A stretch of 64,000 nt of DNA from Panopea generosa (lineage: Eukaryota > Mollusca > Bivalvia > Adapedonta > Hiatellidae), in assembly GCA_029582155.1 (NCBI GenBank), contig CM055901.1, positions 18,500,680-18,564,679 of the forward strand. The letters are read 5' to 3'. The notes under the pieces were generated by a model. That model searched no databases. It was not told the origin of the DNA and saw nothing but the letters and a program-made list of their open reading frames with translations. Shown one piece after another: positions 26,571 through 64,000 of this stretch (position 1 is its first letter; the number at the start of each line of letters is the position of its first letter). The position numbers and the translations under genes were made by a program.

Positions 26571-26758
26571 GAGAGGAATTTATGTAAGCGGTTCGGTTAG
26601 CTCAGACGGTAGATCATTCGCCCTGTAAGCGAAGGGTCCCGGGTTCGAATCCCAGACTGGCTCAATATTTTACTCGTCCTGTAACATTTTTACAGTGCGA
26701 ATGCTCTACTATCTGAGCTAACCGAACCGCATACATAAATTTCTCTCCTAGTAGGTTA
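26560..26758. repeat. Fold-back inverted repeat at the LINE 3' end
   Basis: The left arm is 26560-26622 and the right arm 26694-26758. Read on the minus strand, the right arm repeats cctactaggagag, atttatgta, gcggttcggttagctcag and a following 'gattcgc'-type end, with few differences. The arms are about 60 nt and the intervening loop about 70 nt. The left arm contains the stop codon of the reverse transcriptase. Confidence 0.85.
26587..26663 (+). pseudogene. tRNA-Thr-like sequence in the LINE tail
   Basis: Contains GGTTAGCTCAGACGGTAGA (A box), an anticodon stem TTCGC/GCGAA with loop CCTGTAA (anticodon TGT, with C at the usual U33), and CCGGGTTCGAATCCC (perfect B box). The acceptor halves (gcggttc and gactggctc) do not pair, so it is a tRNA-derived tail or SINE head rather than a functional tRNA gene. 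Confidence 0.6.
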
Positions 26759-28389: not shown

Positions 28390-28775
28390 GGATGTCAGGA
28401 TATATATGATATATAGACAAGTCCTCGCCAGAGTCTCTGCATCTATATACACAAGTTTGTGATACAGAGGAACTCACTATGCATAGACACGTCCTCGCCA
28501 GAGTCTTTGCATCTACATACACATGTCTGTGATATAGAGGAACTCACTATGCATAGACACGTCCTCGCCAGAGTCTCTGCATCTACATACACATGTCTGT
28601 GTATAGAGGAACTCCCTATCCATAGACACGTCCTCGCCAGAGTATCTGCATCTACATACACAAGTCTGTGATATAGAGGAATCCCTATGCAAAGGCACGT
28701 CCTAGCCAGAGTCTGTATCTAGATACACAAGTTTATGATATAGAGGAACTAACTATGCATAGACATGTCCTAACG
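28390..28775. repeat. 70-bp minisatellite, about 5.5 copies
   Basis: Same unit as 7.34-9.17 kb ('cctcgccagagtctctgcat', 'tatagaggaactcac'), in the same position of the segmental repeat. Confidence 0.95.
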
Positions 28776-35500: not shown

Positions 35501-37742
35501 TAATTAAAAATGTATAATATATTTACAGTATGTAATACAATTGGATTTTGAGCTATGTCTGTAATTGCCATTTCTGTTTCTGTTCATAATTGTATGGGTT
35601 TTTCCTTTCTCTGTTTACCGATAGTACCCACATTACAATAAAATGATGATTATTTTCAGGGATTTGGCCACATTAATGACAGAACAGAAGTTATCATGTT
35701 ATATAAGGTGATTTTGATCTGTGACTTTGTAACCAACAGTTCAGATCTGCTATTGTTTGTCAATGTATGTTTTGGACTTTCTCGTGTGTTTTTGTTTGAT
35801 TAATATCCCCATTATCATAAAACGGTGGTTATTTTCAGGGATTTGACCCCATTAATGACAGTGCAGAGGTTATCAGAGATTCCTACTATGCTGGTAAGTG
35901 GTGCTTTTTTTTGATGCAGCAATAAAATGTGGTTTAATACCATTTTCAACACATTCAGATTATATGGCAGCCAGTTTATATTGGTGGAGGAAGACCTCAG
36001 ACTTAATTTTGAGCAGAATCACCTTTCTTTCGTGTATTCAGTAACTATTGGTTGGTGTCTGTATAATGCAGATCTTGTATGTGCCTCACTATATCCAAAT
36101 AGCTGAGTTATCTAATATCATGGTCCAATGTCTTTTTAGAGTATGTTAAATCATTTGGTAACAGGTAAAAACCAATATATACAAAGTGTTATTTAAAGAG
36201 TCCTGGAAAACCAATCTCATTTCTTATACAGAGGACCTGAAAAGTAAATTGTTTATATACAATTTTTCTGAGTTATGTAATAAAAAGAATCTTACAGACA
36301 TGCTCATTTTTCGATAAATTAATTAAACATTTTGGCCAAAATGTATAATGCTTGGCAAGATTCTCACATAATAAATGATTTATCAACTCGTTTAATAAAT
36401 TCAATATTCAACGCTCGTGTAAGATCTTTTGTCTAATTAATAAATAATCCTTGTATATTTTAATTTCAGCCTGTAAATTCTTACTATTTCACAGTCAGAA
36501 CCAATGTCTAATGTGATGACAAATATTACAAAACGGGCATAAAGGGCCAGACTCCTGATAATTAATTAGTCATAAAACACTGAACTTGTGCGTATAGATG
36601 ATAGAAAGATGAAGTAGATGTCAAGCTAAATGATTTAACTTGCTTAACTTTACATTTCAGGATATAAGATGTTTGGAGCCGGTCTCACTGTGGGTATTTG
36701 TAATATAGCCTGCGGTATTTGTGTTGGAATCGTTGGCTCTGGCGCTGCCCTTGCTGATGCCCAGAGTTCAAGTCTCTTCGTCAAAATCCTTATCATTGAA
36801 ATTTTTGGAAGTGCCATTGGTTTATTTGGAGTAATAGTTTCCATTCTACAAGTATGTATTATATGTCTATATATCTATATAATTAGATTTATTGAATATA
36901 TATTCAAACAACAACACAGTGGTGGTTTAGTGGAAAGCATATGCAATGCATGCAGAAATTTGTGGGTTCAGTTATCAGTCTGGGTCATACCGAAGATTTA
37001 AAAAAATGAAACTTCTACGCTGGAGTTCAGCATTAAGAGGATTAAGTTCTAGGTTTTGTCGGCCTGGTGTCAATATAATGAGACTGGGTGGTGTATCGTG
37101 TGTACAGGCATGGTACTCCAGTATGGCAGTGCTCAGAATACTGTTTCCAGCACACACTGACTGAAAAATTATTGTAAGCGACGGTAACCCCCCTACACCA
37201 TCAACTCAGTACACTACAATTCAAAATATAGTCAGAGAATCTTTTCATCAAGCATTCACGTGTGTATCAGATTTCTTCATATATTGTTTATTCAGAAAAT
37301 GATAAATTTTATTTTATAATTATAGTAAAATCAAGCACATTTAAAAATTTTGTCCTCCGCCTTTCCGCAAAGAAGCTGGGAGACATACATGTAGTGGTGG
37401 TCCCCATCTGTTACTTATCAGGATACAATTCCAGATTTTTGTTCTGTGGAAGTATATCAGGATTTTCCAAACTTTTAATAAGAAAAAAAACTTCTGTTTA
37501 TGCCACTGCCATTTGGAAAATATTGATGGGGTATTAAGTGCTACTCCTTTCATTCATTTAAAACTTAATTTTATTTGGCAAAACATTTAATATTTCCTCA
37601 CACACTGCCTATGATGGTGTATTTGTTAGTTAAGATGATACTGTACAAAACCAGGTTAAGTCTTAATGCACTACATGTTGTTTATTTGTAGTAATTTTTT
37701 GTTCTGTTTTAGATTGCGGGAGCCAAACTAGGATCAGACTAG
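29483..37742 (+). CDS. ATP6V0B: V-type proton ATPase 21 kDa proteolipid subunit c'' (seven exons)
   Basis: Spliced CDS join(29483-29582, 31987-32035, 32937-33020, 34747-34894, 35839-35893, 36661-36851, 37713-37742): 657 nt, 218 aa, all introns GT-AG and phases consistent. The product is the c'' proteolipid of the membrane V0 ring, which carries protons across endolysosomal and Golgi membranes. The family is recognised from near-verbatim segments: [73 protein letters not shown] and [14 protein letters not shown]. Glu109, in FCEAV, is the expected proton-binding carboxylate; Glu192 lies in the second proteolipid repeat. Length is close to the roughly 205 aa of vertebrate c''. The N-terminal 30 residues differ from vertebrate ones, as usual. 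Five hydrophobic segments are visible. Confidence 0.95.
29758..30145 (-). repeat. 5S-rRNA-derived repeat (minus-strand copy) in ATP6V0B intron 1
   Basis: On the minus strand 29890-29790 reads GGAAGTTACGCAACG, then GGTTAGTACTAGGATGGGTG, matching the 3' half of 5S rRNA. The body (tctctctttccttgtgattg, gatatggccaggaactgcg, aagccacaggctgtgcag) matches 2.57-2.70 kb. A segment 'tgtacataggtcacttacaac' occurs twice (30100-30130 and 29905-29935), so part of the unit is tandem. Confidence 0.6.
31085..31410. repeat. Tandem duplication, two units of about 177 bp, in intron 1
   Basis: 'acgctaagttttt', 'ctaggacactcatact' and 'acaactaacaccctgca', then 'gcagatgctgagt', occur in the same order twice, about 177 bp apart. 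Confidence 0.7.
31462..31482. repeat. (AT)n microsatellite
   Basis: AT dinucleotide run after a T-rich tract in intron 1. Confidence 0.85.
31987..32035 (+). CDS. ATP6V0B: ATP6V0B exon 2
   Basis: Acceptor TTGCAG, donor G|GTAAGT. Encodes [15 protein letters not shown], the lumenal or loop segment before the second membrane segment, and splits a Trp codon with exon 3. Confidence 0.9.
32740..32892 (-). repeat. SINE family 3 copy
   Basis: On the minus strand: a tRNA-like B box (GGGTTCGATCCCC), then 'cataataccatgcctctg' and 'gatactccagtgtggta'. The body matches 37.08-37.16 kb. Confidence 0.6.
32937..33020 (+). CDS. ATP6V0B: ATP6V0B exon 3
   Basis: Acceptor TTGCAG, donor G|GTAAGA. Encodes [20 protein letters not shown] and LSVVGAA, a strongly conserved membrane segment, with split Trp codons at both ends. 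Confidence 0.95.
33130..33960. repeat. Diverged tandem repeat, about 155-bp unit, in intron 3
   Basis: About five units carry 'cttgtccacgctatttct', 'gaattttatgaaacttgc', 'aggatgcatcattaccaag' and 'gagttatggccctttgatt'. A lone related monomer is at about 30.62-30.77 kb (tggagttatgcccct). This organisation is common in bivalve introns, from general experience. Confidence 0.75.
34441..34665 (+). repeat. SINE family 1 copy (complete-looking)
   Basis: tRNA-like head GGTCCTTCGTGGCAGAATGG, then GTAAGTTCGAGTCTAGC (B box), a body with 'gagaagtttgccagttta' and a tail 'gccatatataacctgaaatg'. Lies at the end of intron 3. Confidence 0.7.
34747..34894 (+). CDS. ATP6V0B: ATP6V0B exon 4 (carries the proton-binding Glu)
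   Basis: Acceptor TTACAG, donor GGG|GTAAGT. Encodes [20 protein letters not shown], then the [12 protein letters not shown] segment with Glu109. Phase 0 end. Confidence 0.95.
35055..35182 (-). repeat. SINE family 2 copy
   Basis: Plus-strand 'gcgaaacaagttattacaac', 'cttcctgggcagaaccagta', 'atgtctcgctcaggggc' and a broken tRNA-like end. Confidence 0.6.
35660..35707 (+). pseudogene. Duplicated copy of ATP6V0B exon 5 (cassette or relic exon)
   Basis: After TTATTTTCAG the sequence GGATTTGGCCACATTAATGA and onward copies exon 5 (GGATTTGACCCCATTAATGA) 179 bp upstream of it, with its acceptor region. It encodes [16 protein letters not shown], 16 open codons, followed by a possible donor AAG|GTGATT. 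Phase in and out is 0, so inclusion before exon 5 would keep the frame and add 16 residues. It has drifted at its 3' end, so it may be unused. Confidence 0.6.
35839..35893 (+). CDS. ATP6V0B: ATP6V0B exon 5
   Basis: Acceptor TTTCAG, donor G|GTAAGT. Encodes [18 protein letters not shown], the loop between membrane segments 3 and 4. This loop is variable in the family. Ends in phase 1. Confidence 0.9.
35968..36055 (-). repeat. SINE family 1 fragment
   Basis: 'ggtggaggaagacctcagac', 'gagcagaatcacctttctttc' and 'gtgtattcagtaact' match the tail half of the 15.0- and 20.0-kb SINEs. Confidence 0.55.
36661..36851 (+). CDS. ATP6V0B: ATP6V0B exon 6
   Basis: Acceptor TTTCAG, donor CAA|GTATGT. Encodes the second proteolipid repeat: [32 protein letters not shown] and [19 protein letters not shown]. 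Phase 0 end. Confidence 0.95.
36915..37165 (+). repeat. SINE family 3 copy in intron 6
   Basis: tRNA-like TGGTTTAGTGGAAAGCATA and GTGGGTTCAGTTATCAG boxes, then a body ending 'catggtactccagtatggca', shared in orientation with the reverse complement of 32.74-32.89 kb. Confidence 0.55.
37713..37742 (+). CDS. ATP6V0B: ATP6V0B exon 7 (terminal, 30 nt)
   Basis: Acceptor CTGTTTTAG. Encodes IAGAKLGSD and stop TAG. It joins in phase 0 to ...SILQ. The short, polar C-terminus fits the family (a few residues after the last membrane segment). Confidence 0.85.
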   Translation: MAGAKLGSD

Positions 37743-46567: not shown

Positions 46568-49500
46568 TTATCTATATATGTATATCTTTTAAATTTTTTA
46601 GTCATCTGTTTCTTATTTCATATGTTCTTAATGTAAACTCATTGATTAAAGACCACACTTTTATAATATAAATGTTATGGTTATTATTCATATTTCATCA
46701 ACATATTGTTTAAGATATTAATATACTTACCGTTAATAAATGATTCGCTCATTTTCATGTAGTTTGTCGAAACATAGTGCAGGAGAGGGGAAACGCCGAC
46801 CAGTAAATCTGGAATGGTTGAAGTTTTTGCATTTATTGCCCCAGTAGTGCAATACTTCATGACGGTATGTGTATACAAATTTAGATGACATTTTGCTCCT
46901 TTTAGCCACAATGGGCGGTATATGCATATGTTTAAAGTATAGACGCTCCTTAATAGTTTAAAATTATTAATTTTAATTTAATTCTGAAACAAGTTACAAT
47001 TTAAGAAAATCACGCTCGTGGTATTCCTGGGTATAACCAGTACTTTAACATATGCCGATAAAGTGTCTTGCTCAAAGAAATCACAAATAGCCGTGGCGGA
47101 GGATCAAACCCAAGGTCCTCCTATCCCGGCTCCGATGTTCTACCGTTGGACCATGCGCTCCACGTACAGATGTAAATATAAAGTTGAAGTGTTTCCATCT
47201 CATTAAATATAAGCGTCTCTAAATTTAAAAATATATTTAACATACAATTAGATTGTATTACTCATAAATGTATTTTACCGTCTCTGAAAAGTGCAGTCCA
47301 GCGTTCGCTGGAATTAGACCCACAATACCCTGTACCATCGTAGATGTTTGGTTTAACTCTGGGATCCGGCAAAATACAGCCCGTGGCTGTAGTTCCTGAC
47401 TGTAAATAAACATAAATATTAATTTACCAAAGTTGGAAACATGATATCAATTTAAACATACTTGTTTTACATCGACTGTAAAATGTGTTTTAAACAAGGT
47501 ATGTAAACCCCGCTTATTGTCTTCCAGGGTAGAACCGTCACTAAGCACATGCAGATACGGAGAGTCTACTGATCCTGCACTTAGCTCCACCACTAGATCA
47601 CGTACAAACAGGGTCGAAATTACAGGCGACGGTGCACCGTCATCATGACATATTATCCAAGTACATACTATTGCTTTATATCGAGTTCAGCAATATCGCC
47701 GCATTTTAAACATTTAGTATAAATAAAATGTAGTGTCATACTTTCGAAAAATATTAACAATGACGTCAACCCGAGGGAGGGTGGGGTACTCCCTATACCT
47801 TGGTTAATACATATGTGCCGCCGTTTTGACCCCTCTTCTTGGACATATGGTGTAGAGTTTGAACCTCCTTCTGAACACATAATGTAGATTTTTTACTCCT
47901 TATTTAATCCTTAATGACAATGTTGAAATGTTTAGTTGTGTCAATGTTTTTCACTGCAATACATTTTCTTCAAATACAAAAAAAATATATTGTTCATAAG
48001 ACAAATGAATCTTATTCTTTATGAAATTCAAGAGCTTATGCCAGTGTTTAGACCAAGTTTAACATAAATTAAATGTATACTTTTGACACCATATTATTGT
48101 TTGAATGAACGGCTTAGACCCCTATAATTGGTTTGAATGTAGAAGTTTGGCAACTAAATTTAGGCTGCAATGTAGAGTTTGTGCCTATGTTTTGAAGTTC
48201 ACAGGGCACGTATGTTTCTATTTTCAGGTCAAGTGCCCCCAACCCCGTGGACGTCAACGCCATTTTAACTGGTAGAAAGAAATGTACTACTCAATCAATA
48301 TTGATATCACTAACTTTTTGAGAACGAGATTCTATCTACGTCACAGTATGCGATATTTAAACAGCAGTGTGACGTATAGCTATCACGTGACTTTTTAAAA
48401 TTAATGTCTGACCTGAGAGCTACTCATTGTGCGTGATATCCACATTGGGCTGCTTATGTCATCGTTGTAGCCAGCGATATAGCCGGGCTGTTGGAGCAGG
48501 AAAGCGTTTCTGGACAGATCACTATTGGTATCTATCATTGGGATTCCCAGCGGCGCATGCTCAGATATAACGGAAGAGTTGGCAGTGCTGATCAATGAAT
48601 TGTACACATCATGTATCTGCAATTCAAATAATCTTATTTTACTACGTAACGTAAGAGCTAATATAAAGAAAATAATAAATACGTTGACATGTTCAAAGAA
48701 AATAATCGTTTAGCATATTGATAATGAAAGTACTTTTTACAGTTTTTAGCCTTATTAAAGTACGATTAAAGTAACCTTAGAATTGTATAACGATATTTAC
48801 CCAAATAGATTTTATAAATAAAGTAACCTTACATTTATGTAATGACTTTAACCTAAAAAGTTTATATAATCAAAATTACCTTGTATTTATAAAATGACTT
48901 TAATCTAAAAAGTTTAAATCATTTAAATAACATTATATTTATATAGTGTCTTTAACCTAAATATTTTATATTATCAAAATTACCTTATATTTATAAAATG
49001 ATTTAAACCTAAAAAGTTTATTTAATCAAAGAAACCTAACACTTACATGACCTTATATTGATATCGTGGCATTAACCTATATAGTTTATATAATGAACGT
49101 AACATTATAGAATATTGAATGAACTTATACCAATACTGTGTATAATGACAATGGCAATACATTTAGAGTTTATATAATGAATGTAACATTCTAGAATATT
49201 TAATGAACTTATACCAATACTGTGTATAATGCCAATGGCAATACATTTAGAGTTTATATAATGAATGTAACATTACAGAATATTTAATGAACTTATACCA
49301 ATACTGTGTATAATGACAATGGCAATACATTTAGAGTTTATATAATGAATGTAACATTATAGAATATTTAATGAACTTATACCAATACTGTGTATAATGA
49401 CAATGGCAATACATTAAGAGTTTATATAATGAATGTAACATTATAGAATATTTAATGAACTTATAACAAAACTGTGTATAATGACAATGGCAATACATTT

Positions 49501-52500
49501 AGAGTTTATATAATGAATGTAACATTATAGAATATTTAATGAATTTATACCAATACTGAGTATAATGGCAATGGCAATACATTTACAGTTTATATAATGA
49601 ACGTAACATTGCAGAATATTTAATGAAATTATACCAATACTGTATACAATGACAATGGCATTACATTTACAGTTTGTATGATAAACGTAACATTATAGAA
49701 TATTTAATGAACTTATACCAATACTGTGTATAATGACAATGGCATTACATTTAGAGTTTATATAATGAATGTAACATTATAGAATATTTAATGAACTTAT
49801 ACCAATACTGTGTATAATGGCAATGGCAATATATTTACAGTTTATATAATGAACGTAACATTGTAGAATATTAAATGAAATTATACCAATACTGTATACA
49901 ATGACAATGGCATTACATTTACAGTTTGTATGATAAACGTAACATTATATAATATTTAATGAACTTATACCAATACTGTGTACAACGACAATGGCAATAC
50001 ATTAACAGTTTATATAAGAACGTAACATTGTAGAATATTTAATGAATTTATACTATTACTGCGTATAATGAAAATGGCAATATATTTACAGTTTATATAA
50101 TGAACGTAACATATGGGATATTTAATGAACTTATACCAATACTGTGTATAATGACAATGGCAATACATTTTATGTTTATGTACATAGCGTAACATTATAG
50201 AATATTTAATGAACTTATACCAATACTGTGTATAATGACAATGGCAATACATTTACAGTTTATATAATGAATGTAACATTATAGAATATTTAAAGAACTT
50301 ATACCAATACTGTGTATAATGATAATGGCAATACATTTAGAGTTTATATAATGAATGTAACATTATAGAATATTTAATGAATTTATACCAATACTGTGTA
50401 TAATGGCAATGGCAATACATTTACAGTTTATATAATGAACGTAATATTGTAGAATATTTAATGAACTTATACCAATACTGTATATAATGACAATGGCATT
50501 ACATTTACAGTTTATATAAAGAACGTAACATTATAGAGTATTTAATGAATTTATACCAATCATGTGTATAATGACAATGGCAATATATTTAGAGTTAACA
50601 TAATTAACGTAACGTTATAGAATTTTCAATGAACTTATACCAATACTGTGTATAATGACAATGACAATACATTTACAGTTTATATAATGAACGTAACATT
50701 GTAGAATAATTAATGAACTTATACCAATACTGTGTATAATGAAAATGGCAATATATTTACAGTTCATAAAATGAACGTAACATTGTAGAATATTTAATGA
50801 ACTTATACCAATACTGTATATAATGACAATGGCATTACATTTACAGTTTATATAAAGAACGTAACATTATAGAGTTTTTAATGAATTTATACCAATCATG
50901 TGTATAATGACAATGGCAATATATTTAGAGTTAACATAATTAACGTAACATTATAGAATTTTGAATGAACTTATACCTATACTGTGTATAATGACAATGA
51001 CAATACATTTACAGTTTATATGATGAACGTAACATTGTTGAATAATTAATGAACTTATACCAATACTGTGTATAATGAAAATGGCAATATATTTATAGTT
51101 TATATAATGAACGTAACATTGTAGAATATTTAATGAACTTATACCAATACTATGTATAATGACAATGGCAATACATTTATAGTTTATATAATGAACGTAT
51201 CATTATAGAATATTAAATGAACTTATACCAACACTGTGTATAATGACAATGGCAATACATTTACAGTTTATATAATGAACCTAACATTGTATACTATTTA
51301 ATGAACTTATATCAATACTGTGTATAATGACAATGGAAATACATTTACAGTTTATATAATGAACGTAACATTATAGACTATTTAATGAACTATATTGAAC
51401 GTAACATTGTAGAATATTTAATGAACTTATACCAATACTGTGTATAATGACAATGGCAATACATTTACAGTTTACATAATAAACGTAACATTGTAGAATG
51501 TTTAATGAACTTATACCAATACTATGTATAATGACAATGACAATATATTTACAGTTTATATAATGAACGTAACATTGTAGAATATTTAATGAGCTTATAC
51601 CAATACTGTGTATAATGACAATGGCAATACATTTTATGTTTATATAAATAGCGTAACATTATAGAATATTTAATGAACTTATACCAATACTGTGTATATG
51701 ACAATGGCAATACATTTACAGTTTATATAATGAACGTAACATATATAATATTTAATGAACTTATACTAGTACTGTGTATAATGACAATGGCAATACATTT
51801 ACAGTTTACATAATGAACGTAACATTATAGAATATATAATGAACTTATACCAATACTGTGTATAATGACGATGGCAATACATTTACAGTTTATGTATTAA
51901 AAAGGTGACCTCAGCTATATAAAACAGAACATTTTGGTAACATGATTTATTAAAAAAGACATTGTTTTGTGATTAGCTGTACTTTAAAAACAATATCGTA
52001 GCATACCATATCAGTCGTGACATGTGTACAGTGGCGGAAGCATGCTGATGACCTTACATAGGTCACGTAATCGTCCGCATCAGCAAACGCAGTTGACGAA
52101 TTTCTGTACGAGTCCGTATGATTCATCTGCTGGGTTCGTGGGTTTTGTAATATATGGTTCAGGGAACCAGCCGTGCCATTATTAGGAGACGCTGTGATAT
52201 TTAACACATCTGCAAATAAAGTATGTCACTGTTGTTATAGACTATTTTGTATATTTCATCAGGGGGTCGGGGGCTCCGAGGCCAAATGGTTAATGCCTTA
52301 TAATAATATTTTTTTTATTATTATTATCATTATTATTAAATAATATATTATCATTATTATTAAATAATAACTATTATCATTATAAAAGCTAAAATGCATG
52401 TCGTTAATTTGTACTTGCAAACATATTGTAAATTTATATCTGCAAACATATTGTAAATTTGTACCTGCAAACATATTGTAAAGTTCAATATTTTCGAACG

Positions 52501-55500
52501 GCTCCACTGTCACATTCCATTTGAAGGCTGGGCCGTATGCAAGGAAAAGGGCCTGAAGGAACAGTTACATGTGGTTTTGATTTCTCTCATGAAAATAATA
52601 AACTAGTATATCATTTCATCTCCGTTTTTTTGTTAATACTATCTCAATACGTTGACATTATACACTATTAATCTTAAACATTAACAATAATTTATAATCA
52701 CATACACATTTTACTTCAAATATCTGATGTAAGTTTACCTCTATGATCTGTCTGTACAGTAAAGTATAGCATATTTCATTTTACAACATCAATATTGTAA
52801 ACTGTATCACTATCTATATTCGGCATTCTCTTATCGTAAGCATGTACATTGTATATCAATATTTAACGGGGCTTATTATTTATGAAAGTCGAGAGTTTTT
52901 TTTTCAGTTTTATATACATGAATTATCGTACACCTTTTACTTAGGCATTTTGTCAAAAACGTAACCAATCTTTCTCCATACAATTTATACAGATGGTTTA
53001 TTTTCATCACACAGTTTTAATCATATAAACAAACCATTCAATCTTTACTATTTTCCATATCTAAACGACATAAATTGTTAAACATTTACCTCCATGCTTT
53101 TATCTATGTTGTCAAATCCATGATTTCCACCCCAGCATGTTTTGATATAACTCCTGAATAATTAAAAAGTATTATACAAAAGTAAGAAAGTATATGTCCA
53201 ATAGGAGACGCACAACCCAAAGGACAGCGTCACCACAACACTACAAATATAAGTCCAAAAGGAGACACAATATTCAAAGGACAGCATCACCACAATACTA
53301 CAACTAAATGTCTAAAAGGAGACGCAGTATTCAAAGGACAGCATCACCACGACACTACAAATAAATGTCCAATAGGAGACGCAGTATTCAAAGGACAGCA
53401 TCACCACAATACTACAAATAAATGTCCAATAGGAGACGCAGTATTCAAAGGACAGCATCACCACAATACTACAAATATATGTCGAACATGAGATGTAGCA
53501 TTCAAAGGACAGCATCACCACAACACTACAAATATGTGTCCAATAGGAGATGCACCGCTCAAACGACAGCTTCACCACATCATTACAAATATATGTCCAA
53601 TAGGAGACACACCACTCAAAAGACAGCATCACCAAAATACTACAAATAAATGTCCAATAGGAGACGCAGTATTCAAAGGACAGCATCACCACAACACGAC
53701 AAATATATGTCCAATAGGAGACGCAGTATTTAAAGGACAGCATCACCACAACATTACAAATATATATCCAGAAGGAGACACAGTATTCAAAGGACAACAT
53801 CACCACAAAACTTTAAAAATATGTCCAGTAGGAGACGCAGTTTTCAAAGGACAGCATCACCACAATACTACAAATAAATGTCCAATAGGAGACGCAGTAT
53901 TCAAAGGACAGCATCACTACAACACTACAAATATATGTCCAACAGGAGACGCAGTATTCAAAGGACAGCATCACCACAATACTACAAATATGTGTCCAAA
54001 AGGAGACGTAGAATTCAAAGGACAGCATCACCACAACACTACAAATATGTGTCCAATAGGAGATGCACCGCTCAAACGACAGCTTCACCACAACACTACA
54101 AATATATGTCCGATAGTAGACACACCACTCAAAGGAAAGCATCACCACAACACTACAAATATATGTACAATAGGAGACGCACCACTCAAACGACACATCA
54201 CCACAGTACTACAAATATATGTCCAATCGGAGACGCAGCATTCGACGGACAGCATCCCCAAAACACTACAAATATGTGTCCAATAGGAGACGCACCGCTC
54301 AAACGACAGCATCTCCACCGCTCAAACGACAGCATCACCACAACACTACAAATATGTGTCAAATAGGAGACGCACTGCTCAAAGGACACAAAAAACACTA
54401 CAACTATATGTCCAACAGGTGACGTAGCATTAAAAGAACAGCATTCCCGCAACATTACAAATATGTGTCCAATAGGAGGCACACCGCTCAAACGACAGCA
54501 TCAACACCGCTCAAACGATAGCATCACCACAACACTACAAATATGTGTCCAATAGGAGACGCACCGCTCAAACGACGCAAAAAACACAGCACTGCAAATA
54601 TATGTACAATAGGAGACGTAGCATTCAAAGGACTGCATCACCAAAACACTACAAATATGTGTCCAATAAGAGAAGCAGTATTCAAAGGACAGCATGACCA
54701 CAACACTACAAATATATGTTTAATAGGAGACGCAGTATTCGAGGGACAGCATCACCACATCACTACAAATATGTGTCCAATAGGAGACGCAGTATTCAAA
54801 CGACAGCATCACCACAACACTACACTTATGTGTTCAATATGAGACACAGTATTCAAAGGACAGCATCACCACAACGCTACAAATATGTCCAATAGGAGAC
54901 GCAGTAATCAAAGGACAGCATCACCAGAACACTATATATATGTCCAGTAGGAGACGCAGTATTCAAAGGACAGCATCACCACAACACTACAAATATGTGT
55001 CCAATAGGAGACGCACCGCTCAAAGAACACAAAAACTACAAAACTACAACTATATGTCCAATAGGATATGTTGCATTCAAAGGACTGCATCACCAAAACA
55101 CTACAAATATGTGTCTAATAGAAACGCACTGCTTAAAGGACACAAAAACCACAACACAACAACACCATAAATATAACTTATAGATAGAATGACAACGTCG
55201 TTTAGTACAATACATGTATATAGAAGAAGTGACAACATGAGTTACCGCATTGTAACGATCAGACCTAAACCAAGTTTATGAGTGCTCCAACCTCGCTCTT
55301 CCAGAGTCGTCATATCGTAAAACGATTTAGTGTCCCCAGCATTTTACACTCTTACAAGTACGACAGCATGTATGCATGCACTGTGTAAAATACTCATAAA
55401 GCGAGACAGTGTAAATCAAGGAACTGACAATCTAACCAAAATAAAATTAAATACTGTCAAAGTATTGAAGCCAAACAATAGGTTCATATATTCAATTATG

Positions 55501-58500
55501 GAAACGTAATGTCATGATACTAAATTCAAGTCAAAATGTTTAATACAAAACAGAACAACAGAGAGTTAACTGATTTTAATTAATTATATTTTAAAGATAT
55601 AATTAGACACTAGAGATTTCTGTCAATTTCATGAAATATTAATTAGTGATAATTTAGAGAAATAATCAGAACTTGTATAAACTTTAATTACTTAACTTAC
55701 CAGACATTTCGAAAAAAATGACAATGGCATGAATCAAATCTTATACATTCGCATATTTCTGTCAAAACTCAAAATTTGATTATTGTGATTGGATACTCCG
55801 TGTCGCCGTCTCAGGAACACTTACCCCTCACCGCGCTATGGTCGTAAGTTCAAATACCTGATTGTTCCAAAAACATTATGCGAGACAATTCACTAGATAC
55901 TAGTCGAAGGACGGTGGTTCTGCTCAGATTCATTCTGAGAACTTCCTCAACAAATACATCTGAGTATGCCATATATAACCAGAAATGAGTGAAAGTGTCG
56001 TTTAACCCTATTCGAAAAATTTACCTTGTCACTAGCCATCCGGATTCCATATCCAACAAGAAATCATCAATCCTATCGTTGTTAGTGTAGTGATGACGTA
56101 CCGGAAGTGACGATTTCCTGTATACATTCATGTGTGGACTTGCACAGGTCAAATTTGCAAAGAGGTCAGCAGTCGATGCTTAAATATGAAAAAAATAGGA
56201 AAATGGTTAGTTGTCTTAAATTTCTTCAAATAACAATTTGTGTCAAAAGAATAAATACATGTTATTCCTTTTATAGTGTAGAAACGAAATTGTTTTCCAA
56301 TGACTTTACTAATTAATTCTCTATTAAACTAAGTTCCTTAGCATGTTATTAATAATATTTTTATAATTATAACCAATTGAAAATAATTCATTTTCAAACG
56401 CACTATAAGCAATATCTCCCTTGGTTTACTGCATTATATATTTACTACACGTATGCAGAAACTTGAATCAAAACTGTAAATTTCATATTCATTATTTTTC
56501 GCACACAAAAGTGCCGACGTGCCGTAAAACTCAACCTAATCATTGAGTGTTGCAAGTTTACTTTGTGGCTACTAACCCGGTTCCTGTGCTGGTAATATAT
56601 CTCTGGTTGTGCTATTGTATATGTATGTATTAGCGATCCGTCCAAATGCCCCTTCCCAAACATAGGTATTTTTGCTGAGGTAGTCATAATCTACGTCGTA
56701 TTTCAACTTTACAAGCTGTTTGCAACTCACATCTTCCATTCCTGCAATATATAAAGTAATCCATGTTTCATTTACAAATAATTTACAAATAATCAAGTCA
56801 TTCGAAGAGACGAGTAGTTGAATCGCCCGCGTGTGTGTGTGGTGGGGGTGATGCTAATGACGATGGGGTTATGCCCAGAAGTATTAATGGCGGGGTGTAT
56901 GGGTAGAATGTGTTGAAACTTAAACGAAACTTCTGCATATACTTTCTGTCTAAGTTCTTGAATATTTCAATATGATGCATAAATATTATACATTTTGGTT
57001 AAACATTGCTAGGTTGGTATGATTGAAACCAAGCTCGGCTCTACCAACACAATACATTACCCCCAACCACCACCACCCACCCACCCACACACACTTGGTC
57101 CCTACGCCATAACTTAACGTATCTGTATGGCTGTTTTTGTGCAGTACTAGTGTAACATTGTGTAATACTAATATACGATAAACTAATGGTCAGGGACATA
57201 ATTTATACGGCAGATCTATGATGACTGAACTATAGAGACTTAGATTGTAGAACAGACCCAGCTCTCGCGCTTTGGTCCGTTACATAGCAATGGAATTTGA
57301 ACACGTTGATTGGTCACTTATTTCAGGGAAAGTTAAATGACGTCATATTTCGATAACGTGAAATAGCTTTGATTAATTGTGGGAAAGGATAATCTGCTTT
57401 CCGATTGGTTGAACAGACGTGAATCGGGAGACTTATGCTGACGTACCGTGGTCTGCTATGATGACAAGGTTGACGCAGTTGTGAAGATTCTTCTCCACCA
57501 ATCCATTCATAAGTTGCGCAATGGTTTCATCCACCTTCTCCAAAGCTGCACCAATCTGTAACAAAATAATAGCTTACACAATTGGCATTCCAGGATTTCA
57601 GGAAAGAATGGTTAGGTTAATTGGACATCTGTTAGCCCACCTCGGTGCTGTATAAAGGACGCTAAATATTCAAGCAAACAAACATTTTATTTATCTCTCT
57701 TTGTATTATGTTCTTGAAATATTTGGTGAAATGTTAGCTTGCCTCGGTTTTTCTTTAGTGTGTTTTATGCTTTGGCATTTCTTTTACGATGGATACTACG
57801 AACACCCCTCGTATATGTGAGCTTAATGGCACACTCAAAATAGATGCTAGTAATGTAGTATTGTGATAGATATATTAAATATACTCCTATTTTCTTGAAA
57901 GGGGCATATAACTATAGCGATTGTATGAACGACTTCTTATTTCACAATTTTGCGATCATTTATTCATTAGTTTTAACCGGAATGTAAGAGGAAAAAATTC
58001 CAAAAAAATATCAATTTGTATGCTTGATGATTTTTACCTCACCTGAGCCCAAGGCTCACAGGTGAGCTTTTGTGATCGCCTGGTGTCCGTCGTCCGTCGT
58101 TAATTTTTAGCTTCTAATAAAGGAGGCTGTTTTTTATATGGATATATAGTGAAAACTTTCTTTCGATATCTGATATCCAGATATCCGCACAAGGATACTA
58201 TTGTTGTCGCACAACTCGTCTACTCTGTTACATCTTTAAAACAAATCAAAATTCTAACTACTCGCCCATCTCGTGTTTCTGGAATTTTGAATGTACATGT
58301 TTTATATAATCTACTTAACTGTATCAAGGTCACTCAGGTGAGCGATATAGGGCAATCTTGGCTCTCTAGTTATTCATATATTCTAGCGCTTTTACTTACA
58401 TTTATAATTTTTAAAATATGCAGTGTCGGGTAACAAAACTTGAAATTGTTGTTTCTATAATATATGTTTATACTTTCATATAATTTGATACTCGAACATG

Positions 58501-58649
58501 TGTTACACTCGTATTCAGATTCTAGCCTTTAAGTTCATTTACTTGTAAATTTTATCATGCTGCAGTCATCTCTTATAAAGACTAGTATATAGATCTGTAT
58601 TGTAATTGATATTATTGTTATATGATCAAAATACCAATTTCATTTTTCT

Positions 58650-58720
<71 letters not shown>

Positions 58721-61700
58721 GCTTTTTTAACATCATGAGTTTATATGTTAAATTAAGGGTGCACTTTGTAAATATGTTAAGGGCCTCATTAAAGATTGAA
58801 ATTATTCAAATAAATTCTCTCGTTAATGAAGTCTTTATTATTATGATAATTATTATTATTATCATTATTACTATTATTATTGTTATTATTATCGTAATTA
58901 TTATCATAAAGGATAATAATAATAATAATACTTATAATAATATGACACAGTAAAACAAAATCAACAATAACAATATCCAGTAAATGCTTTATGATTCAAG
59001 ACAAACTGGGAATTTCCAATTTAATGTTCCATTTATATTTCCTTTGACGTATTCAAGCACATACACTAAAGAGGAGATTGTATTTAATTACGTTTACATT
59101 ATTTATTGGTTTACCCCACCTGGTACTCAAATTAGGTGACTAATTCAGTTAAATTTCATCTGACCATATTATTCATATGTTCCAACATCGATGTGATTGC
59201 TTTTACGTAATCCCGATATCAATTTGTCAGTTTGTCTAGCTCTCACAGCGCGTCATTATCTCTTGTACATCAAGTGTTATTGTCCTCCAATTTGTTGTCC
59301 ATATTTCGTCCAGTGCTTTCTCGGCTCTATATATTCAGCCATTTAGATAATATAAGCAATAACTAAGATAATACCCATTAAGTTTATTTCATTGTTTAAA
59401 GCGAGTTCAGCGTGGTAAACTTCATTTACCCAACAATAATGTCTTCAATAGAACATTAGTCATTTTAGAAAGTATATACAAAGCATCGATTATTGGATTA
59501 TGTTCAAATTAGGAAATTTTGCAGAATAAATATTATTCCATTTTGTAATTTTTGGGGATATTTTTGACATGCGGCGTTGGATTTTTGTTCAATGGAAAAG
59601 CCTAGCACGTAATTTGGATTGCCCCTCGTGTGGGTGAGTAGTGAAATAACTAAAAAGGAGAATTTTTAAAAAGAATAAAACAAACATGGCTTCGACTGAT
59701 GAAGGTATGTTAGACTTTCAATCCGATTTAAGACGCATCGGCGAAGGTTATTTAATGTTTGTCATATGTGTTGTTGGTGTATTTGGAAACCTCCTGGCAT
59801 TTGTCACATTTTCAGCAAAATCCGTTAGAAAATCAACAACGTCAATATATCTACGAGCTCTAGCAATCGCAGACATTTTGGTTCTGTTGACAGCTGTTTT
59901 CCGTTACAAAACTTACAAACTGTTCTTGAACGATGAGGACGAAATCGACTCTGTGTTTTACTTCGACGCCTACGTGGAAGTATATATAGAACCTTTACAT
60001 TGGACAGCTCTTGGATCTTCCAGTTTTATCACAATAGCGCTGTCCTTGGAACGATACCTTGCCGTGAAATATCCACTGTTGATCAAACGATCCTGCTCTG
60101 TTACTATAGTACTTTTGTGTATTTTGACTGTAGTTGCCGTGGCTGCTGTAATAACCTTGCCGAATTTTACTTCATACACAATCACTAAATTCCATTTCTT
60201 AGGAATTGATGTTGCCGTGGCAACGTTGACTAAAATGGGAGAAACTACTTTATATCCATGTACATATCACAACTACATCGTTCCGATTCTCTGGTATATA
60301 ATACCAGCTATTTTGCTGTCAGTCCTGAATATTCTGCTTTCAGTCCACGTGCAGAAATCTACACGGATTCGTGTCGGACTGCCACATGTGTCAAATCCAA
60401 ACAGGAAACTGACGCTACTGATTATTTTCATTGTGTCAGCTTACATTTTGTGTAATTTCCCGAAATGTGTGTTCATGTTCTACAAACTGATTCATGAAAT
60501 GTCGGATCAAAACGAATGCATTCAAAATACCAACAAAATAAATTCTCCGGACACAAAGGCCTACCTCGTCATCGAGGTTATAACGGAGTTACTCAACGTT
60601 TTGAACAGCTGTATGAACTTTTTAGTGTACTGTCTTGTTGGCACAAGATTTCGGAAAGAGCTGAAGAGAACTATTACTTGCCAATGGGGAAAGAAAACTG
60701 AATCTTGGACTTTCCCTACAAATCAGCAATCTTCTGTCATAAATAAAGACAGTGGAATATCAGCTTAAAGTACCTTAGAATTTACACACAAAGATGTAAC
60801 TCTTTAAATGCAAATTCCACCAGACGCATTCGCTCCTACTACTTTCTGTTCGGAGAAAATGCAACCCCTGCAATCTACTTTCATTCTTTTTGCAACGAAA
60901 CGTTAGTTGCCACAACTGTGTCAAACTTCTATATGAAGTAGGGAAAGTACAGCGAACCCAATTTGGACATTAGAACCGGAATGAATGTAAAACTGACATG
61001 AAAGTAAACAATAACAAGTTCGTCAAGTGTTGTTTTTTTGTGTGTTTTTACCAGATCTTCAAGGTCATTTATTTTTATTAATTATAAACTCAAAAGAAAG
61101 CTCTTTATAACAGGAACCAGTTTCACTAAAATCTCAATTTCTCTAAGTAATTACTTAAACGTATTACACATTTAATGAGCACCTAGTATTGAAATAATAA
61201 CAAACCTTTACTCATTGGTAATTGATAACATGGAAAAAGACTAATGCAATTGCAGTTACAGCGTTTCAAAATATTGAGATGAGGAAAATCTCAAGTTGAG
61301 ATGTTAAGTGAAAGGGGGGCCTGGTTCATAAAATGGCTATTGATTTAAGTTACAGAGAATAAAGTATTTATAATTTAAACAATACTTCTTCCACATCACT
61401 TGGACCATGTTTGTGTCCGGCCAAGTCGGGTTCGTCAAAGTAAAGTGTTATAAAGTCTGGTCTCTCGCCATCGGGCAATGCCATCCAGGATAGTACAGTG
61501 TCTACTCGTGATGAATACGATACGGAGCTAAAGACATAAACAAAAGTTGTATAATCATTTTTGCAAACGCAAAAGATACAGTCAAATAAAGATAAAATTT
61601 TTGGTAACTATTGTTTAAGTTTGTATATCAATATAAATGTACACACTACCAGACATGTGTTTATTTTCATTATATATATTGCTACCCTCAAAATTGCATT

Positions 61701-62317
61701 TATATGTGCATCTTTGACGTAGTATAGACATTTTTTAAAATATTGCTATTGTTCAAAGTATACAATGTTACTATGTTGTGACAAGTATACTGGTCAGACC
61801 TAATACCGCGAGTCTAAATTTTTTCAACCATGTAAAGAATGGCGTCAATAATAAACAGTAATAAGGTTACACAAGTATGCTGAGCAATAAACAATTGCCG
61901 ATACAAAATGCAAGCAAATACCGACGCTAACGGAAGTTGGAGCTTTGCGCATGTCTTACCAGTTTGTTTTTATACGGGCATTCGCGGTAATAGGTATATT
62001 GCGGTATTAGGTATACTGTATATACATTTGATGCTGTATTTTTTTCTTTAGTCTATCGCTTGTAAATATTGATTTAAAGAGCGAGGTTGGGCACACGAGT
62101 AATCAAGTTTAAGCCTTTCGGTGGCGTGTTGTGCTATTGAGCTTCTAAAACGGCGACATTTGGAAACATCTTAATTAATGCAGGCAAGAGAAGCGGAGGA
62201 TTTTTCAGTAATATCTGAGGCTGCTGTTCCAATCATTATCTTTAATGACAATCCAATATGTTATGCGTGTATTAACATCTTACCCGTCATATGCCTTCCA
62301 GATGTCGGGATGCATAC
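43796..62317 (-). CDS. Ectonucleotide pyrophosphatase/phosphodiesterase, ENPP1/3-type (14 exons, 5' end outside or unfound)
   Basis: Minus-strand exons from 62317 down to the stop at 43796, about 600 codons, each flanked by AG/GT with matching phases. ENPP ectoenzymes hydrolyse extracellular nucleotides through a two-zinc site. Visible metal ligands are Asp and His in FDEPDLAGHKHGP, Asp-His in IIADHGM, and His in CWGGNHGFDN. The catalytic Thr and first Asp would be on exons not found here. After PNNGTAGSLNHIL come the linker and the nuclease-like domain (ISSPMWISRT, INVVVGPVFD, SHFYVILTRC, ARVRDVELITGLNFF), present in ENPP1-3 but absent from ENPP4-7. The Ca-binding loop reads DHNHDSLPD where vertebrates have a DxDxDG type, keeping three likely ligands. 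The Cys-rich part of the lasso linker is lost. Introns hold two minisatellites and a nested GPCR. Confidence 0.9.
44040..44130 (+). repeat. SINE family 1 fragment
   Basis: 'gtgagaaagtttgccagtta' and 'cttgtggaagaacg' resemble the body of the family. Confidence 0.4.
44756..44891 (-). CDS. ENPP exon (nuclease-like domain, SHFYVILTRC)
   Basis: Acceptor TTTACAG, donor AAG|GTACTG. Encodes NETLASHFYVILTRCQESGY and, after a short linker, TTNAYILPNSAVV, matching vertebrate 'PTHFFIVLTSC' and 'SAYILPHRP'. The HRP motif is replaced by NSA. Phase 0 end joins TFEEYLL. Confidence 0.9.
45600..45770 (-). repeat. SINE family 2 copy in an ENPP intron
   Basis: Plus-strand 'ttgcgaacaaaagttc', 'cttgggtagaaccagga', 'gggtcgagcaggggatcgaa'. 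Only about 45 bp from the exon at 45815. Confidence 0.6.
45815..45947 (-). CDS. ENPP exon (GPVFD and calcium-loop region)
   Basis: Acceptor TTTCTTCCCATCAG, donor GG|GTGACA. Encodes TWTPLQNHIRDRVNKHTKIN, then VVVGPVFDHNHDSLPDRI. Corresponds to vertebrate '[20 protein letters not shown]'. Confidence 0.95.
46500..46565. repeat. (TA)n microsatellite
   Basis: Long uninterrupted TA run in an ENPP intron. Confidence 0.95.
46731..46898 (-). CDS. ENPP exon (nuclease-like domain, middle)
   Basis: Donor ACG|GTAAGT. Acceptor AAAAG is weak; an alternative AG three bases further in keeps the frame. Encodes AKCHLNLYTHTVMKYCTTGA, then VSPLLHYVSTNYMKMSESFI. The next exon continues NATWTPLQNHI. The end aligns with vertebrate 'LLTSNIVPMYQSFQVIW'. 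Confidence 0.75.
46975..47165 (-). repeat. SINE family 2 copy in an ENPP intron
   Basis: Plus-strand 'ttcctgggtataaccagtac', 'aagtgtcttgctcaaag' and 'ggaggatcaaacccaagg' with a complete inverse tRNA-like head up to 'accatgcgctccacgtac'. Confidence 0.65.
47279..47399 (-). CDS. ENPP exon (nuclease-like domain, CILPDPRV)
   Basis: Acceptor TTTACAG, donor ACG|GTAAAA. Encodes SGTTATGCILPDPRVKPNIY and then GYCGSNSSERWTALFRD. Aligns with vertebrate 'NCLYQDLRIPLSPVHKC'. Ends in phase 1. Confidence 0.8.
47515..47605 (-). repeat. SINE family 2 fragment
   Basis: 'cttccagggtagaaccgtca' and a truncated tRNA-like end. Confidence 0.45.
48413..48616 (-). CDS. ENPP exon (start of the nuclease-like domain)
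   Basis: Acceptor GAATTGCAG, donor CAG|GTCAGA. Encodes IHDVYNSLISTANSSV, EHAPLGIPMIDTNSD, FLLQQPGYIAGYNDDISSPM and WISRTMSSSQ. Aligns with vertebrate 'PYGRPRIL', 'CLLQQQQFLTGYSLDLLMPLW'. 204 nt, phase 0 at both ends. Confidence 0.95.
48740..49085. repeat. 52-bp tandem repeat next to the 84-bp array
   Basis: 'tgactttaacctaaaaagttt', then 'ataatcaaaattaccttg', 'tatttataaaa' repeats with exact 52-bp spacing at 48843, 48895, 48947 and 48999. About six diverged units. Confidence 0.8.
49085..51895. repeat. 84-bp minisatellite, about 33 copies, in an ENPP intron
   Basis: The unit contains 'aatgtaacattatagaatat', 'ttaatgaacttatacc', 'aatactgtgtataatgac' and 'aatggcaatacattta', then 'gtttatata'. Neighbouring copies are exactly 84 bp apart (for example 49264 and 49348). 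It fills most of the 3.4-kb intron between 48616 and 52058. Confidence 0.95.
52058..52209 (-). CDS. ENPP exon (end of the catalytic domain and linker)
   Basis: Acceptor TTTGCAG, donor TAT|GTAAGG. Encodes VLNITASPNNGTAGSLNHIL, the conserved ENPP 'PAPNNGTHGSLNHLL', then a polar linker (RTQQMNHTDSYRNSST) that lacks the cysteines of the vertebrate lasso loop. Confidence 0.95.
52411..52486. repeat. 25-bp direct repeat, three copies, spanning an ENPP splice donor
   Basis: 'ctgcaaacatattgtaaatt' occurs at 52411, 52436 and 52461 with 25-bp spacing. On the minus strand the first copy is the exon end and its donor (TTTGCAG|GTAC), the next lacks GT (GCAGATAT) and the third again carries one (GCAAGTAC). 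Confidence 0.85.
52465..52552 (-). CDS. ENPP exon (ALFLAYGPAF)
   Basis: Acceptor CCTTCAG, donor GCAG|GTAC. Encodes ALFLAYGPAFKWNVTVEPFE, then NIELYNMFA, matching vertebrate 'QALFIGYGPAFKHG...FENIEVYNLMC'. Confidence 0.95.
53090..53153 (-). CDS. ENPP exon (metal-binding GGNHGFDN)
   Basis: Acceptor ATTCAG, donor GAG|GTAAAT. Encodes SYIKTCWGGNHGFDNIDKSM and E. His in NHG is the third-site zinc ligand of the family; the usual preceding Asp or Phe is Asn here. Confidence 0.95.
53190..55170. repeat. 57-bp minisatellite, about 34 copies, in an ENPP intron
   Basis: Unit 'tgtccaataggagacgcagt', 'attcaaaggacagcatcacc', 'acaatactacaaataaa'. A second variant has 'gcaccgctcaaacgacagc'. The length is 19 codons, so frames persist along the array: CPIGDAVFKGQHHHNTTNI and SNRRRSIQRTASPQHYKYM on plus, VVVMLSFEYCVSYWTYICS on minus. 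These give ORFs up to 250 codons. It lies wholly between splice-bounded ENPP exons, so I treat it as intronic repeat rather than a gene. Confidence 0.95.
55795..56010 (+). repeat. SINE family 1 copy in an ENPP intron
   Basis: Head with 'tggtcgtaagttcaaatacc', body 'cgaaggacggtggttctg', 'cagattcattctgagaac', tail 'tgccatatataaccagaaat'. It ends about 15 bp from the exon at 56025. Confidence 0.65.
56025..56178 (-). CDS. ENPP exon (LPVRHHYTNNDRI)
   Basis: Acceptor TTTCATATTTAAG, donor AAG|GTAAAT. Encodes STADLFANLTC, then SPHMNVYRKSSLPVRHHYT and NNDRIDDFLLDMESGWLVT, matching family 'HPNMTVYKKEDIPERFHY.NN.RI'. Phase 2 end completes an Arg with the next exon. Confidence 0.95.
56577..56741 (-). 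CDS. ENPP exon (DHG|MEDVSC)
   Basis: Acceptor ATTGCAG, donor CCGG|GTTAGT. Encodes MEDVSCKQLVKLKYDVDYDY, then VWEGAFGRIANTYIYNST. Corresponds to vertebrate 'MEQGSCKK...GPAARL'. Confidence 0.95.
57447..57555 (-). CDS. ENPP exon (IIADHG metal site)
   Basis: Acceptor GTTACAG, donor ACG|GTACGT. Encodes IGAALEKVDETIAQLMNGL, then HNCVNLVIIADHG. Asp-His of the DHG motif are zinc ligands. Confidence 0.95.
58020..58370. repeat. Dispersed repeat with 'caggtgagc' ends
   Basis: 'ctcacctgagcccaaggctc', 'acaggtgagcttttgtgatc' near the start and 'ggtcactcaggtgagcgata' at the end. The sequence 'gcctggtgtccgtcgtccg' is a pattern I associate with bivalve dispersed repeats. Confidence 0.55.
58651..58720. repeat. 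(GT)n microsatellite
   Basis: About 35 GT units with one interruption. The 115-codon ORF over it is an artefact. Confidence 0.95.
58845..58935. repeat. (ATT/ATC/AAT)n microsatellite
   Basis: Impure trinucleotide run of ATT and ATC triplets, ending in AAT repeats. Confidence 0.85.
59686..60768 (+). CDS. Class A (rhodopsin-like) GPCR, FMRFamide-receptor-like orphan, intronless, nested in an ENPP intron
   Basis: 360 aa; start context AAACATGG is good. Seven hydrophobic segments. TM1 has GN (Asn35), TM2 LRALAIADILV (Asp63), TM3 ends LERY (Arg123) and AVKYP. TM5 has Pro207, TM6 CNFP (Cys256, Pro259) in place of CWxP, and TM7 is NSCMNFLVY (Asn311-Phe312 to Tyr315) in place of NPxxY, followed by a basic helix 8 (GTRFRKELKR). 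The TM7 and TM6 forms are those of FMRFamide/peptide-type receptors of invertebrates. The usual TM3 Cys (position 98 here) is Glu, although the loop-2 Cys192 is kept, so the canonical disulfide seems missing. It acts in the plasma membrane; ligand unknown. It lies antisense inside the ENPP intron 57556-61385. No intron is seen in the coding part. Confidence 0.9.
   Translation: MASTDEGMLDFQSDLRRIGEGYLMFVICVVGVFGNLLAFVTFSAKSVRKSTTSIYLRALAIADILVLLTAVFRYKTYKLFLNDEDEIDSVFYFDAYVEVYIEPLHWTALGSSSFITIALSLERYLAVKYPLLIKRSCSVTIVLLCILTVVAVAAVITLPNFTSYTITKFHFLGIDVAVATLTKMGETTLYPCTYHNYIVPILWYIIPAILLSVLNILLSVHVQKSTRIRVGLPHVSNPNRKLTLLIIFIVSAYILCNFPKCVFMFYKLIHEMSDQNECIQNTNKINSPDTKAYLVIEVITELLNVLNSCMNFLVYCLVGTRFRKELKRTITCQWGKKTESWTFPTNQQSSVINKDSGISA
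61386..61527 (-). CDS. ENPP exon (FDEPDLAGH metal site)
   Basis: Acceptor TCTTTAG, donor GAA|GTATTG. Encodes SVSYSSRVDTVLSWMALPDG, then RPDFITLYFDEPDLAGHKHG. The Asp and His of EPDxxGH are zinc ligands. Confidence 0.95.
62284..62317 (-). CDS. ENPP micro-exon (34 nt), first recognised exon
   Basis: Acceptor ATTTCAG, donor GG|GTAAGA. Encodes MHPDIWKAYD and splits a Gly with the next exon, matching family 'G.FPDIYKMYNGSV'. Starts in phase 1, so an upstream exon must exist. Confidence 0.85.
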
Positions 62318-62847: not shown

Positions 62848-64000
62848 ATACAGGCCATATTACAAAAACGTGCAAGCTCAAACAAAATGAAGTTGTATAT
62901 TATGTACACCTTGTATTGGAACATCGGATCCAGGCCAGAAAAATGCTGAAGTATTTAAGCCTTGTTTCTTAGCGGTCAACCAGATCTGGAATTGAAACAG
63001 AAATATATATATATATAGTAAAATGTATACTGTGCATATAATGTTGAAAATCAATTGTTATGTCCACAAACTGTCACTTATTGTATCTAGATTATATATG
63101 GCTTAACAAAACTAACACTACAAGATCACAAGGTTTCAGTGTATTGTGGTGACTGTTGTTTTACCGTTCCACTGTGACGGCCAGTGTTGTCATTACTTCT
63201 GTACATCCGATATTTTATATAATGAAAAGTTTGTGCAGTTATTGCGCTTGCGCTGTTGTCATTTGAATATCACGTTTGCTGTTGGACATGCATTTTTTTA
63301 TATTTAGTTCAAACTTAAATTTTCTGAACCTAAACTACATTTAACGAAAGAAAGTTATAATCGGTAACCTGGATTTATTGATATTTCGTCAACACTAGTT
63401 TGTAAATTTCATATTTTGATATATATTGAACAAATTCATTGGGCATATTTTCAGAAAAATGCATTTAAATTCAGACAGAAATAAACAAAATCAAAATGCA
63501 CTCTTCGGGTGATACATTTCAAAACGTTCTATACGTTTATTGCTATATTAATTTAAATGAAATTTCCAGACAATAGGCTCAATGATTTGTTCATTTGATT
63601 GTATATCAATTATAAAATGTACACATAAGTTGAGGAAATATTAGTAAATCAAGGTGACCGGTGATTAATTCTGTTGGTCATATTTGTTCTTGACTAAACA
63701 CCACAATCCTTTAAATTAAACGAACAGTTTTGTTATATGTTATCTTACATCATGATAAAAATCAGTATGGTTGCAGGTAAGAATAGGTCCACATTCGATA
63801 TCTGCAGAGGGTAGGAATCCTCCATATGGGTATCATGTCCAGTATAGTATTTCTTGTCATTTACATTACTGTGGTTAGATTATAAACTCCTATGTGGTTT
63901 CCATAGTGTCAAAGGAGTGATGGCAAGAATATGAACACGTTATATCAAGCATGTTATAAGATTCAACTGATTGAATGATAGGATTTGCTGAAATTCTGCA
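62330..64000. other. ENPP intron or 5' region, no exon recognised
   Basis: I searched the minus strand for the 'GEPIW...WPGS' and 'TKT..NH..LVTG' segments expected upstream and did not find them. Contains a (CT)n run and AT-rich sequence. Confidence 0.4.
62799..62845. repeat. (CT)n microsatellite
   Basis: Uninterrupted CT run of about 23 units. Confidence 0.95.

Follow-up and report, generated by a model that had tools for sequence, protein, structure and literature searches.

The analysed window (64,000 nucleotides of Panopea generosa, C8:18500680-18564679) very probably holds an old single-exon GPCR gene of the FMRFamide-receptor/Srw-like group, lying antisense in a long phase-0 intron of copy A of an ENPP gene, as an independent gene for which no functional link with its host is needed. 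At the level of sequence, direct support extends to both coding structures, as judged from homology together with splice signals, to the nesting, to the receptor-free introns of two sister ENPP genes and to a dispersed family of single-exon receptors. The G+C content of the window is 33%; a chance origin of the receptor and ENPP frames is excluded by their homology.

The host gene runs on the minus strand. Its receptor-bearing intron (57556..61385, 3,830 bp) has GT...AG ends and holds the receptor on the opposite strand; two tandem ENPP paralogues have an intron at the same position. The intron lies between an exon at 61386..61527, carrying the metal-site stretch FDEPDLAGHKHGP (PF01663 134-182, E = 7.3e-10), and an exon at 57447..57555 that ends in the ADH metal-site stretch (PF01663 186-219, E = 2.8e-08); both have an AG acceptor and a GT donor. 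Exon 61527-61386 closes with a whole codon, which makes the intron phase 0; the receptor coding sequence falls wholly within this intron, judged by sequence and not by transcript. Upstream on the minus strand are exons at 62284..62317 (GMHPDIWKAYDG; tblastn identity of 76.9% to copy B and 66.7% to copy C, with splice sites) and 62910..62985 (identified by pattern scan, splice sites and alignment to ENPP3), and two further 5′ pieces sit 190-807 bp past the right edge of the window.

On the 3′ side, the exon following the ADH exon begins GMEDVSCKQL (56575..56741, minus strand); it was placed by its acceptor and frame and its 3′ end is approximate. Its first residues alone enter the ENPP3 alignment, it has no Pfam match of its own, and its match to copy C is weak (E = 0.13). 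A probable exon at 53090..53140 (minus strand, approximate bounds) was found by pattern scan and bears the metal-site stretch NHGFDN, which reads NHGWDN and NHGYDN in copies B and C. Two further minus-strand exons, neither with a Pfam match of its own, were recognised through the tandem copies: one beginning ALFLAYGP (52466..52552), 72% identical to both, and one beginning DVLNITASPNNGTAGSLNHIL (52046..52210, approximate 3′ end), matched by tblastn at 42.5% and 50%. Tandem arrays of 57-bp units (53191-55162, between exons of copy A, with frames open on both strands) and of 84-bp units (49083-51893, beyond the last ENPP exon found) also lie in this part of the window; both unit lengths are multiples of three.

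A 228-aa chain of seven ENPP exon pieces, among them the two past the right edge of the window, aligned to solved ENPP3 with an E-value of 3e-82, and the alignment runs across the receptor-bearing junction, with one extra residue there and one more at another joint. The same chain matched ENPP1 at 2.6e-81, and ENPP3 and ENPP1 ranked ahead of ENPP2 and ENPP4-7. Copy A has the stretches LDGF, TKTFPNH, FDEPDLAGH, ADHG and NHGFDN, which we take to be those bearing the catalytic Thr and the six metal ligands of ENPPs. By sequence likeness the host is thus an ENPP1/3-like gene, resembling these ectonucleotide pyrophosphatases over the 228 aa compared. The original prediction had described a receptor nested in opposite orientation in a phase-0 ENPP intron between exons with metal-site motifs; splice sites, the PF01663 matches and the ENPP3 alignment uphold this description, and the coordinates it gave for the receptor and both flanking exons proved exact.

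When the genome (1.47 Gb, 39 contigs) was searched in full with an ENPP profile, more ENPP exons came to light next door on the same strand, and the adjoining region C8:18564001-18624000 yielded two further genes, B and C. The host is therefore one of three tandem ENPP genes. The two exons flanking the intron in copy A share 54% and 51% identity with those of B, and 63% and 54% with those of C. The homologous intron lies in the same place, in phase 0 and with GT...AG ends; its length is 915 bp in copy B and 3,225 bp in copy C. A tblastn search detected no receptor in either of these introns (best E = 6.9 for B, 0.86 for C), nor did they hold any ATG-started ORF longer than 70 aa. Counting ATG-started ORFs of at least 61 aa, and setting aside the receptor and the frames overlapping it, the intron of A has one (72 aa), that of B none and that of C two (68 and 70 aa); stop-to-stop frames at five ENPP pieces on C8 span 49-100 aa. 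Since the sister introns are without the receptor, the nesting is specific to copy A and was either gained there or lost in both B and C.

The receptor ORF (59686..60768, plus strand) encodes 360 aa in one exon from ATG to stop. It matches the Pfam profiles Srw (PF10324, E = 2.6e-20) and 7tm_1 (PF00001, E = 3.8e-18) over nearly the full length of each profile, scoring 73.4 bits against the Srw cut-off of 22.2 and 66.4 bits against the PF00001 cut-off of 30.5, the latter across profile positions 1-260 of 260, as expected of class A. These matches place the predicted protein in the rhodopsin class, within the FMRFamide-receptor/Srw-like group. An in-frame TAA precedes the ATG at 59647-59649 with no ATG between the two, so an upstream coding exon is not needed. 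By sequence, the closest solved relatives are neuromedin-U receptor 2 (1e-13), followed by the angiotensin type 2 and neuromedin-B receptors; the label "peptide-type" in the original prediction holds in this sense, as a statement of sequence similarity only. Most likely the product is a seven-transmembrane receptor that responds to a small ligand, such as a peptide, and acts through G proteins. Counting against that reading, the N-terminus carries no N-glycosylation motif, the sole one being NFT at residue 160. AlphaFold2, given the receptor as a single sequence, returned a mean pLDDT of 40.9 and a pTM of 0.27.

With a threshold of E = 0.001, a protein search for relatives of the receptor gave at least 113 genomic matches, itself included; the figure is a lower bound, since scoring covered 113 of 402 candidates. 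The matches listed are spread over 17 contigs, and a hand count found no in-frame stop in 108 of the 113, with stops in the other five. The one-exon structure thus appears to be the rule of an old, dispersed receptor family, which speaks for an ancestral intronless family rather than a recent retrocopy. The original prediction had left the choice between retroposition and such a family open. Recent retroposition, in which a spliced receptor mRNA would have been reverse-transcribed into the ENPP intron, is very unlikely. Two features would suit it, the one-exon structure of the receptor and the presence of a reverse transcriptase frame elsewhere in the 64-kb window. Yet the runner-up to the nested receptor, among the matches listed, shares 29% identity with it and is likewise a single frame; when the receptor region (59600-60800) was searched as DNA, no second copy turned up, the locus itself being the sole candidate. 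No exact flanking duplication was present either, the repeat pairs bracketing the receptor being 17-20 nt long at 80-85% identity.

The highest other identity among the matches listed is 33%, over a partial stretch. An intron-bearing, closely related parent was not found among the 113 of 402 candidates scored, in a search that reads exons singly and that a parent split over short exons could escape. Around the receptor no clear poly-A tail or target-site duplication was seen, features that an old copy would have lost to decay. For the two best relatives (L057 and L058, two of 112), the translated flanks within ~10 kb of surrounding sequence showed no obvious exon when read by eye. The nearest other match on the same chromosome, among those listed, is ~1.7 Mb away; a PF00001 genome search that scored 147 of 1,391 candidates, and whose listing does not include the nested receptor, was used for this distance only. 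Ten single-exon matches with frames of 355-366 aa lie in both orientations on contig C18 (15.49-16.08 Mb). This group suggests a recent local expansion, since L024 and L030, the two members included in the tree described below, are nearly identical.

Thirty of the 113 loci were fetched and 29 aligned, L016 being left out because of an in-frame stop. All 29 match 7tm_1, and 26 of them match Srw. In the whole-length alignment the nested receptor is 17-25% identical to the other 28 rows, compared with 29% to its best-scoring relative. It retains D63, R123, P259, N311 and Y315, which are invariant among the 29 aligned members, as well as N35 and P207, conserved in at least 90% of them. In a maximum-likelihood tree of these 29 rows, all relatives from its own genome, it falls within a 12-row clade (support 98/99). 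Its end branch of 1.89 is the fifth-longest, and its exact place is accordingly unsure, as the tree program warns of long rows. Position 3.25, counted back without gaps from R3.50, is Glu and not Cys. Cys at 3.25 is common, though not universal, in class A receptors, and in this numbering scheme we take it to form the TM3-ECL2 disulfide. It is absent from all 12 rows of the receptor's clade versus one of the 17 other rows (loci L009-L038).

The long end branch could hint at relaxed constraint. Taken further, it might mark the frame as a decaying relic, expressed nowhere, that has gained no stop so far, a notion to which the in-frame stops in five of the 113 family matches listed also lend something. 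We regard this as improbable: the frame is full-length and keeps the conserved positions of the family, and a neutral frame would be unlikely to last to the ~29% identity that separates it from its next relative. An intact, old member of the intronless family remains the preferred reading of the receptor gene.

A DNA search with the whole intron scored 40 of 7,033 candidates. An interspersed repeat within the intron and outside the receptor (58028..58385), with rows on many chromosomes, filled the list, and by itself the search is uninformative on receptor copies. The matches listed comprise 47 other rows, none of them over the receptor: at least 39 at 88-90% identity over 58121-58385, at least five at 80-91% over 58028-58120, two near the low end of the intron, and one inverted match of the intron's own AT-rich stretch.

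Several other features of the window were recorded. The segment 25026-26729 contains a 514-aa reverse transcriptase frame (RVT_1, 3.3e-23), followed ~23 bp on by a tRNA-Thr gene (26590-26664); by eye, an inverted copy of the start of the tRNA lies ~50 bp beyond that gene. A non-LTR element that targets tRNA genes or carries a tRNA tail is one possible reading of this segment. At 7361-9151 and 28413-28771, ~19 kb apart, lie two arrays whose 70-bp units are almost the same. Two exon-like ATP-synt_C pieces (PF00137) lie on the plus strand at 34730-34975 and 36648-36998, and presumably represent exons of a V-ATPase proteolipid gene.

The original prediction also held that antisense overlap allows mutual regulation of receptor and host. 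Such regulation is conceivable, and we found no support for it; the coding parts of the two genes do not overlap. The first canonical AATAAA past the receptor stop lies at 61358..61363 (plus strand; motif only), just short of position 61386, the edge of the ENPP exon; the second, at 61585, is beyond exon 61386-61527. Given these positions, whether the receptor mRNA would reach the ENPP exon depends on which of the two signals is used. At the usual distance from AATAAA to cleavage, an mRNA using the 61358 signal would end at about the exon edge, and the overlap may then be nil.

We give little probability to a functional antisense pair, a reading under which the receptor and ENPP would control one another through their transcription or RNA, for example by way of a receptor 3′ UTR that enters exon 61386-61527. 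The opposite strands and the placing of the two signals on either side of the exon would suit it, and transcriptional interference between nested genes is reported to have RNA-seq support in Drosophila (PMC8467205); on the other hand, two tandem ENPP copies do without the arrangement, and a survey cited in PMC3786989 is reported to have found no significant correlation between host and nested expression. The more specific proposal, that the 3′ end of the receptor mRNA reaches exon 61386-61527 and tunes ENPP splicing, in an arrangement acquired by one of the three tandem genes, is just as far-fetched. Were the pair functional, the cluster would amount to a natural experiment in which the two receptor-free ENPP genes serve as controls. 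For the host transcript, work in Drosophila reports that poly(A) signals within introns are normally ignored (PMC3890989).

For the independent receptor gene that we favour, the course of events can be outlined as follows. The receptor would have entered the ENPP intron, or been retained there, as a dispersed intronless duplicate. It would be transcribed from its own plus-strand promoter as an independent gene, giving an mRNA, unspliced or spliced in the 5′ UTR, that encodes a seven-transmembrane receptor. The ENPP pre-mRNA, for its part, would lose the receptor by splicing along with the intron.

The arrangement is an ordinary one, as single-exon, opposite-strand genes in introns are documented and common. 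Nested structures are reported to hold 4.3-8.7% of protein-coding genes in seven vertebrates, about 6% of Drosophila genes are given as nested (PMC3786989), and the ratio of intronic to intergenic space in metazoans is said to be ~1:1. A literature search on nested genes with GPCR or bivalve terms returned, among the matches listed, no title or abstract opening concerned with this receptor/ENPP pair, which does not imply that none exists. As a discovery the case is modest, since nested, opposite-strand, intronless genes occur widely across the animals that the cited papers survey. Its value lies in being a clean and checkable instance of dispersed single-exon receptor genes landing in the introns of other genes, with the receptor-free homologous introns of two tandem ENPP copies as a built-in comparison for the effect of nesting on host splicing or expression.

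Among known receptors, the FMRFamide/myosuppressin/Srw group is one close parallel, Srw being the best Pfam match, although the nested receptor stands apart through its low identity, 29% even to the best-scoring relative in its own genome. A weak but clear relationship of the srw family to the receptors for FMRFamide and myosuppressin has been described; against a peptide-signalling role, the same authors hold it unlikely that SRW proteins serve as receptors for neuropeptides and speculate about peptides from the environment (PMC2576165). Candidate chemoreceptor families in Aplysia are reported to be chiefly single-exon, among them AcCRb with 38 full-length intronless genes of 319-364 aa (PMC2700072), and like the family here AcCRb is a large multigene family of single-exon rhodopsin-like receptors. 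The Aplysia families are described as clustered, whereas the nested receptor's nearest listed match on its chromosome is far off, at the distance given above. For the nesting itself, the closest parallel is 2mit inside timeless2 in Drosophila, likewise a protein-coding gene wholly within a host intron and on the opposite strand; 2mit contains one intron and is reported to keep its nested position among Drosophila species (PMC3786989), whereas the receptor described here is a single exon.
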